Made by a program: the position numbers and the translations under genes
The notes under the pieces: model-generated
What the model saw: the letters and a program-made list of their open reading frames with translations, nothing else
What the model was told of the DNA's origin: nothing
Database searches by the model: none
Part shown: piece after piece, positions 1 through 12,876 of the stretch
Layout of the letters: every line of letters starts with the position of its first letter
Position numbering within the stretch: the first letter of the stretch is position 1
Source: a bacterium
GTDB taxonomy: Bacteria; CSSED10-310; JAJRTK01
DNA: 12,876 nucleotides
Reading direction: 5' to 3'
Assembly: GCA_024278345.1 (NCBI GenBank)
Contig: JAJRTK010000508.1
Location: 1-12,876 of the forward strand

Positions 1-95
1 AGGGAGCTGGCTCCCTGGCGTGGGTCTGGGAGCGGCGCTCCCAGCGGAGGTCCGGAGGCAGAGCCTCCGCCGGGTTCCAGGGCTGGAAGCCCTGG
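1..95 (-). repeat. Array of four short GC-rich stem-loops (array A)
   Basis: Four perfect hairpins follow one another. They are 1-16 (7-bp stem, probably cut by the window edge), 26-44 (arms CTGGGAGC/GCTCCCAG, loop GGC), 53-69 (CGGAGGC/GCCTCCG, loop AGA) and 77-95 (CCAGGGCT/AGCCCTGG, loop GGA). The spacers carry GGGT, which is the complement of the ACCC spacers in the array at 305-372, so this array appears to lie in the opposite orientation. Strand is assigned on that basis. Stem sequences differ between members although stem length and loop size are kept. Confidence 0.8.
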
Positions 96-149
96 GGCGG
101 CGTCTGAAATCTGCACCGTGGCCGGTACTATGACCAAGGCCCTCGGAGA

Positions 150-182
150 GCATGGAGGCCGGAAGGCCTCCATGCGAAAGGC
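150..182. repeat. GGAA-loop hairpin repeat, copy 1
   Basis: Arms CATGGAGGCC (151-160) and GGCCTCCATG (165-174) enclose the tetraloop GGAA, a GNRA-type loop. A further G-C pair (150/175) gives an 11-bp perfect stem. The repeat continues with GAAAGGC after the hairpin. Copy 2 at 464-496 matches over about 33 nt with two differences. Confidence 0.8.
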
Positions 183-250
183 AGAGATTTGTCTTCATGG
201 CGGTTGTAGGTACGGTTTACGACCTATGGTTTTGCGGAATTTCTGGCCTT

Positions 251-296
251 CGGGCAACGCCGCGCTCCGCTCGGCGGGTCACGTTTGCGTGACTCG
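251..296 (+). repeat. 46-bp dispersed repeat, left copy
   Basis: This block, from CGGGCAACGCC to GCGTGACTCG, recurs at 12787-12833 in the same orientation, with one single-base indel and two or three substitutions. It contains a perfect 6-bp hairpin, GTCACG-TTTG-CGTGAC (278-293). In both places it is followed by the TCCGGGGA start of a hairpin array, so the repeat and array seem to travel as one module. Confidence 0.75.
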
Positions 297-304
297 GCGG
301 TTGT

Positions 305-372
305 CCGGGGACTCTGTCCCCGGTCCCCTGGCAGGGCTTCGCCCTGCACCCACCAGGGAGTTACCTCCCTGG
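305..372 (+). repeat. Array of three short GC-rich stem-loops (array B)
   Basis: Three perfect hairpins lie at 305-323 (CCGGGGAC/GTCCCCGG, loop TCT), 331-347 (GCAGGGC/GCCCTGC, loop TTC) and 353-372 (CCAGGGAG/CTCCCTGG, loop TTAC). They are separated by 5-7 nt spacers with an ACCC motif. The stems vary in sequence but keep 7-8 bp and a 3-4 nt loop. There is no T-tract after the array, so a simple intrinsic terminator is unlikely. Confidence 0.8.
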
Positions 373-440
373 ACCCACGTTCTTGTACGCTACGCGTCTT
401 TTCTTTCATTCTTCGGCGTGGTTCGAGGATGTTCCCTGAG

Positions 441-496
441 TGTTACCGTGAAAATACACGCCAGCATGGAGACCGGAAGGCCTCCATGCCAAAGGC
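441..496. repeat. GGAA-loop hairpin repeat, copy 2 (extended)
   Basis: The hairpin arms are CATGGAGACC (465-474) and GGCCTCCATG (479-488) around GGAA, with one A/C mismatch compared with copy 1. The upstream part (441-464, TGTTACCGTGAAAATACACG then CCAG) is shared with the inverted copy at 3478-3523. The downstream AAAGGC is shared with copy 1. The copy starts about 37 bp beyond the synthetase stop codon, so it could form the 3' end structure of that transcript. No T-tract follows directly on the minus strand. Confidence 0.75.
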
Positions 497-532
497 TAGA
501 AAACTCAAAAGCGGGACCGTCGGTGGAAGAGG

Positions 533-3457: not shown

Positions 3458-3500
3458 AAAAACGGCCTTGGCCATCGGTGAGGCCTTCCGGCCTCCATGC
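3458..3500 (-). terminator. Possible intrinsic terminator of the DUF1684 gene
   Basis: Reading the minus strand past the DUF1684 stop, GAGGCC-GGAA-GGCCTC forms a short stem. An alternative GGCCT (3481-3485)/AGGCC (3464-3468) pairing is followed by G and five T (3458-3462). Part of the structure is the dispersed repeat, so the repeat may act as a terminator here. Stems are short and the choice between pairings is unclear. Confidence 0.4.
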
Positions 3501-3523
3501 TGGCGTGTACTTTCACGGTAACA
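3478..3523. repeat. GGAA-loop hairpin repeat, copy 3 (inverted, partly degraded)
   Basis: On the minus strand this reads TGTTACCGTGAAAGTACACG, then CCAG, CATGGAGGCC, GGAA and GGCCTC. It matches 441-484 over about 43 nt with two substitutions. The far end of the 3' arm is altered (ACCG interrupts CCATG). It fills the gap between the convergent nuclease and DUF1684 genes and ends one base from the DUF1684 stop codon (3525-3527). Confidence 0.8.
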
Positions 3524-12512: not shown

Positions 12513-12876
12513 GAGGAAGAGATTCCCCTGCTTCTTCGGTTGATTCCAATGCTTTTTGATCCTTGGGTAGGGCGAGCTAAAATGATAGGTTACCGGATCA
12601 TGGAGTGAAACGCATCTTGACAAAGAACGCCACGGAGGCGGAAATGCCGCGCGAGGTGTGGCGGACGGGGGAAGCACGCGCCGAAGGCGTGGGTCGTGCC
12701 GCCGCGAGGGGAACGCAACCCAAGAAAGAAACGACGGGTATCCACGCAAGGCGGGACATTCCCGGGACTGTGGAATCGCAAGCGTCCGGGCAACGCCTCG
12801 CTATCGCTCGGCGGGTCACGTTTGCGTGACTCGAAGGGTCACGCCGCGCGTTACCCGAAGGTGGTCCGGGGATTCC
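12513..12876. other. Right-end intergenic region with repeat module
   Basis: No supported gene. A frame of 74 codons on the plus strand (12605-12829) runs into the dispersed repeat and has no recognisable family. The hydrolase promoter should lie here on the minus strand but I cannot place it. From 12787 the sequence repeats the left-island module, and the window ends inside what appears to be the first hairpin of another array. Confidence 0.6.
12787..12833 (+). repeat. 46-bp dispersed repeat, right copy
   Basis: It matches 251-296 from CGGGCAACGCC to GCGTGACTCG with a one-base insertion and two or three substitutions, including the perfect GTCACG-TTTG-CGTGAC hairpin (12815-12830). About 30 bp later TCCGGGGA (12865-12872) matches the start of array B at 304-311. 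The extra spacer holds a further hairpin (12836-12856, GGGTCACGC/GCGTTACCC, one mismatch) that the left copy lacks. Confidence 0.75.

Follow-up and report, generated by a model that had tools for sequence, protein, structure and literature searches.

The QMITE2 elements of Coxiella are 150–190 bp long, have TIRs of 23–29 bp and are flanked by direct repeats of 7–11 nt whose sequence differs from site to site. Their core folds strongly, with a palindromic part inside, and about a dozen full-size copies are present (PMC5896051, PMC10969869). BrickBuilt of Porphyromonas gingivalis is a MITE made of a single 23-nt unit in spacer-free tandem copies, and it was found 19 times in a genome (PMC4596501). 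A third class comprises the REP/BIME palindromes and REPINs with their RAYT (REP-associated tyrosine transposase) genes; TIRYT elements occur in Acidobacteria, too (PMC3733652, PMC3116915).

The hairpin arrays described here were detected in a stretch of 12,876 nucleotides (the window), which is a whole contig (C453) of a 6.06-Mb assembly with 550 contigs and a completeness of 87.9%. The FadB protein encoded in the window has its nearest relatives in MAGs of Thermoanaerobaculales and other Acidobacteriota, with identities of at most 71%. A scan for perfect stems of at least 7 bp with loops of 3–5 nt gave seven hairpins in positions 1–372, whereas 1,000 dinucleotide-preserving shuffles of this region contained 0.13 on average and two at most. 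In the remainder of the 12.9-kb window only four such hairpins were found by the same scan. The perfect G/C hairpins noticed in a previous, sequence-only reading are thus real and their density does not match a shuffled background. The two arrays listed in that reading, A on the left and B on the right, are confirmed as well, but its inventory had not counted the 11-bp hairpin at 150–175 and had missed a weaker hairpin at 278–293. Furthermore, array A is truncated because it is cut by the contig edge. The 11-bp hairpin recurs at 464–489 and partially at 3480–3501. The weaker hairpin corresponds to GTAACGC-CTC-GCGTTAC in other copies of the array.

Table 1. Repeat features of the window. Positions are those of the forward strand.
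Feature	Position	Strand	Properties and basis
Hairpin truncated by the contig edge	1–16		
MITE A copy, right 141 bp (element positions 61–201)	1–141	+	97% identical to the 201-bp C249 copy
Hairpin 2 of MITE A, CTGGGAGC-GGC-GCTCCCAG	26–44	+	Stem 8 bp, loop 3 nt; hairpin scan
Hairpin 3 of MITE A, CGGAGGC-AGA-GCCTCCG	53–69	+	Stem 7 bp, loop 3 nt; hairpin scan
Hairpin 4 of MITE A, CCAGGGCT-GGA-AGCCCTGG	77–95	+	Stem 8 bp, loop 3 nt; hairpin scan
Right TIR of MITE A, GTGGCCGGTACTATGACCAAGGCC	118–141	-	2 mismatches to the consensus
Presumed right TSD of the MITE A copy, CTCGGAGA	142–149	+	Position beside the TIR, left partner beyond the contig edge; other complete copies have 8-bp TSDs
11-bp hairpin GCATGGAGGCC-GGAA-GGCCTCCATGC, within a third (C-type) repeat	150–175	.	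Hairpin scan
Payload module (array B with flanking parts upstream and downstream)	233–406	+	Homologous to the interiors of MITEs A and B
Additional weaker hairpin GTCACG-TTTG-CGTGAC, upstream in array B	278–293	+	Comparison of copies
Hairpin CCGGGGAC-TCT-GTCCCCGG, corresponding to hairpin 3 of MITE A	305–323	+	Stem 8 bp, loop 3 nt
Hairpin GCAGGGC-TTC-GCCCTGC, corresponding to hairpin 2 of MITE A	331–347	+	Stem 7 bp, loop 3 nt
Hairpin CCAGGGAG-TTAC-CTCCCTGG, followed by ACCCAC; counterpart of MITE A hairpin 1	353–372	+	Stem 8 bp, loop 4 nt
C-type right-end motif CTTTCATTCTTCGGCGTGGT	403–422	+	Same motif adjoins the payload at other loci
Second C-type unit, left end TTAC-CGTGAAAATACACGCC, with the hairpin 464–489	443–496	+	
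Start of MITE B, first 141 bp, truncated by the contig edge	12736–12876	+	Perfect 23-bp TIR at 12736–12758

Array A is part of a repeat, MITE A, that measures 201 bp when complete, starts with GGCCTCGGTCATGGTACCGGCCAC and ends in the exact reverse complement (e.g. C249:23099–23299). Its TIRs of 24 bp are perfect in the complete copies found elsewhere in the genome; the left 60 bp of the window copy fall beyond the contig edge. With up to three mismatches, TIR A has 233 genome sites (115 and 118), compared to none for a reversed control. Using positions 1–520 as a query, more than 30 copies of window positions 1–142 were found in the same genome at 96–100% identity. Most of these copies sit at contig ends and have ~141 bp in common. 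Such near-identical copies are expected from recent amplification. Fifteen of the 17 complete elements are exactly 201 bp long. Perfect TSDs flank 10 of the 17 (nine of 8 bp and one of 9 bp, with one site counted twice on two contigs) and the remaining seven have no clear TSD. When flanks were swapped or paired at random, less than one chance TSD was obtained per set, both for MITE A and for the second family described below.

One copy of MITE A (C5) splits the ORF of an ISL3 transposase (locus L109, 1–1500). Profile position 161 of the Pfam model is where the match of one half of this ORF stops and that of the other half starts, and excising the element together with one copy of its 9-bp TSD restores a frame of 197 residues that runs to the end. 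The same locus carries another copy of array B with a type-B end at 1090–1240.

The second family, MITE B, has a 23-bp TIR (GGGTATCCACGCAAGGCGGGACA) that is unrelated to TIR A and has 413 genome sites (196 and 217), compared to none for the control. Perfect TSDs of 8–9 bp are present in 11 of 23 complete elements, and 12 are without a clear TSD. Both families are under ~600 bp and contain no transposase gene (A, 201 bp; B, mostly 219–303 bp). A first look with window positions 181–450 gave 515 candidate matches in the same genome, and in an alignment of ~30 of these many lie within MITE B. In the window, array B is not framed by TIR B; there, a third type of end (C-type) frames it. The arrangement of payload, CTTTCATTCTTCGGCGTGGT and a TTAC-CGTGAAAATACACGCC unit recurs at several other loci. 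The ends of the C-type repeat are asymmetric, and no clear TIR or duplication was found at the copies compared. A dispersed intergenic repeat, TTAC-CGTGAAARTACACGCC with the hairpin GCATGGAGRCCGGAAGGCCTCCATGC, is observed at window positions 443–496 and 3480–3501.

Transposition of MITEs A and B, as read from these sequence features, is well supported by the TIRs, the TSDs and, as indirect evidence of movement, the ISL3 frame that is restored on removal. Very probably, the arrays form the interior of DNA transposons that are non-autonomous (MITEs), and this cargo is modular and shared between families. The previous suggestion that related palindromes invaded repeatedly is correct.

These MITEs resemble QMITE2 in their overall size and in the lengths of TIRs and duplications. 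In contrast to QMITE2, the core is an array in which ACCC spacers set three to four hairpins apart, the copy number is much higher with more than 100 type-A elements, and one core occurs with different TIRs. As in BrickBuilt, the interior is a repeated array, but the units differ in stem sequence while having the same geometry and are separated by ACCC spacers. Short G/C palindromes in high copy number and one RAYT-like gene in the genome are reminiscent of REP/BIME elements and REPINs. REP sequences, however, are palindromes of 20–40 bp with a GTAG or CGTC tag and without TSD (PMC3733652). The hairpins described here measure 17–20 bp, are flanked by ACCC or GGGT in place of a GTAG-type tag, and form an array cargo rather than palindrome pairs inside elements with true TIRs. 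In the open-access literature searched, no case was found of MITEs that have unrelated ends and a hairpin cargo in common. The MITE families are new, and their unusual feature is the shared modular hairpin cargo.

REP/BIME elements had been named as the nearest known class, in which case the palindromes would be moved by a REP-associated tyrosine (Y1/HUH) transposase. The search for a RAYT gene gave one candidate, an ORF of 241 aa at C390 (L089, 1012–1734), which matches the NCBIfam model REP_Tyr_transpos with an E-value of 1.4e-18. Its score of 67 bits is below the curated cut-off of 80 bits, its Pfam Y1_Tnp match is likewise below the cut-off, and the ORF is present in a single copy. It adjoins TTAC-starting tandem units of the C-type (TTACCATGAAAGTACATGG), and one type-B element is close to it. 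Together with the asymmetric C-type ends this speaks for a REP-like process, and the tyrosine transposase might serve the C-type repeat. MITEs A and B, on the other hand, have TIRs of 23–24 bp and TSDs of 8–9 bp, which is the anatomy of MITEs mobilized by DDE transposases. Y1 transposases are not known to make such structures. Thus, the assignment to REP/BIME is rejected for A and B and, as an explanation of the arrays, it is improbable.

Searches of the 87.9%-complete assembly for ISL3, DDE_Tnp_1, IS1595, IS256 and Y1 transposases gave no gene that is enclosed by TIR A or TIR B. ISL3 is represented by the gene split by MITE A and one fragment, DDE_Tnp_1 by one fragment at a contig end and IS1595 by two fragments, and no IS256 was found in the genome. 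The ISL3 family likewise generates 8-bp duplications, but its one gene here is interrupted by the MITE, and what looks like the right end of the ISL3 element (GGCGAAGAGCC) is unlike TIR A; ISL3 was rejected as the mobilizer. IS1595, IS4/IS5-type and IS256 elements were rejected since the genome searches gave fragments or nothing. An autonomous element with TIR A and another interior was sought by a pattern in which A or T comes after TIR A, and no match was obtained in the genome. High-copy autonomous elements are of the kind that this repeat-broken assembly would lose.

Judged from the alignment, array B is related to the hairpin module of MITE A but has diverged from it (~76% identity) and is inverted. 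Positions 30–108 of MITE A align to window positions 402–324 on the other strand (76.5%); the arrays do face opposite ways, as the sequence-only reading had it. When the arrays of MITEs A and B are placed in register, they are collinear with constant geometry, and each of three hairpins in A has its counterpart in B. Seven stem pairs differ on both sides between A and B (e.g. GC/AT, CG/GC and AT/GC): pairs 4, 6 and 7 of hairpin 1 and pairs 1, 2, 3 and 5 of hairpin 2 are replaced by other standard pairs. These pairs were counted in register by a script, as MAFFT alignment A1 misplaces the middle hairpin.

Covariation was tested for hairpins 1 and 3 in an alignment of 37 distinct copies. Pairing is kept in 94.9% of the cells and drops to 28–58% when the partner is slid by 1–3 columns. 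Cells with two-sided changes number 29, compared to 7.0 in letter shuffles, and neither this value nor the covariation score is reached by any of 500 shuffles. The number of pairs with a two-sided change, on the contrary, is no higher than in the letter shuffles, 106 of which reach it among 500. The compensatory changes in the stems that had been proposed are present. Most of them date from the divergence of A and B and thus represent few independent events. The fold is probably selected, since the stems drift while the pairing is kept.

As a single DNA strand, MITE A has a folding energy of -74.1 kcal/mol (z -9.1); window positions 233–406 folded as RNA have -81.7 (z -4.2). One strand of MITE A carries a stem with a T-tail. 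Strong folding, maintained pairing and this T-tailed stem would also suit regulatory RNAs or terminators that are selected by the host, spread by recombination and are not mobile. Such a reading does not account for the TIRs, the TSDs and the insertion into the ISL3 gene with its frame restored on removal, nor for near-identical copies as predicted by recent amplification. Additionally, a terminator scan of the window gave two sites (0.7 in shuffles), none of them in array A or B, and the Rfam search matched no family. Non-mobile regulatory RNAs are therefore a highly unlikely explanation.

Within the MITEs, the cargo varies by whole units. A 174-bp variant of MITE A (C58) lacks exactly one hairpin and one ACCCAC spacer, which fits a deletion between direct ACCCAC repeats; slippage or recombination may have been the route. 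In some copies of MITE B (L130, L136 and L152) hairpin 3 is replaced by an unrelated hairpin, CGTTGC...GCAACG.

The pattern CCAGGG-N8-CCCTGGACCC, a hairpin next to its ACCC spacer, has 243 sites in this genome (112 and 131; control, 0 and 1) and a single site in one of 385 other genomes. Together with the paired changes in the stems, this contradicts arrays that are unique to the locus and lack covariation. The 201-bp MITE A is absent from 59 other genomes searched, including seven from the same phylum. TIR A was not found in IMG/VR and window positions 1–520 were not found in PLSDB plasmids.

The contig has a repeat at either edge, MITE A at 1–141 and MITE B at 12736–12876, and these ends of exactly 141 bp each look like k-mer breaks inside repeats. 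An origin of the repeated ends in the assembler itself, for which the many copies at contig ends and their k-mer-like overlap of ~141 bp could be quoted, can practically be dismissed, as complete copies inside contigs (e.g. C249, C160, C506 and C5) have TSDs and unique flanks; the repeats give rise to the overlap and not the reverse. The dispersed MITEs partly explain why the assembly falls into 550 contigs.

For the MITEs as mobile elements, the following course can be proposed. A DDE-type transposase acting in trans would recognize the TIRs, and the element would be inserted via a staggered cut of 8 or 9 bp. Between the ends it carries three to four G/C hairpins with ACCC(AC) spacers and then a short stem that has a T-run. 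Homologous arrays are carried by families A and B with their unrelated TIRs and by end type C, which is without clear TIR. Hairpin units can be lost or replaced between the ACCCAC spacers, and one exact deletion of this kind is observed. The fold would be kept either for the transcript or single-strand behavior of the element itself, or as an insulator that ends transcription or protects mRNA at insertion sites. A more far-reaching version is put forward tentatively: the cassette may be a portable cargo, captured by at least three element types with unrelated ends and shuffled at ACCCAC, whose stems were kept paired by selection because the folded cassette aids the spread or the tolerance of the elements, e.g. 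through transcription termination or mRNA protection where they insert.

MITEs usually have their ends in common with a parent element, while their interiors are their own. Here, the interior is shared and the ends differ, which suggests either an exchange of cargo or one cargo under strong selection; cargo exchange between the element families is possible to likely. As hundreds of copies are present in a single genome, covariation, the loss of units and insertion preferences are directly measurable.
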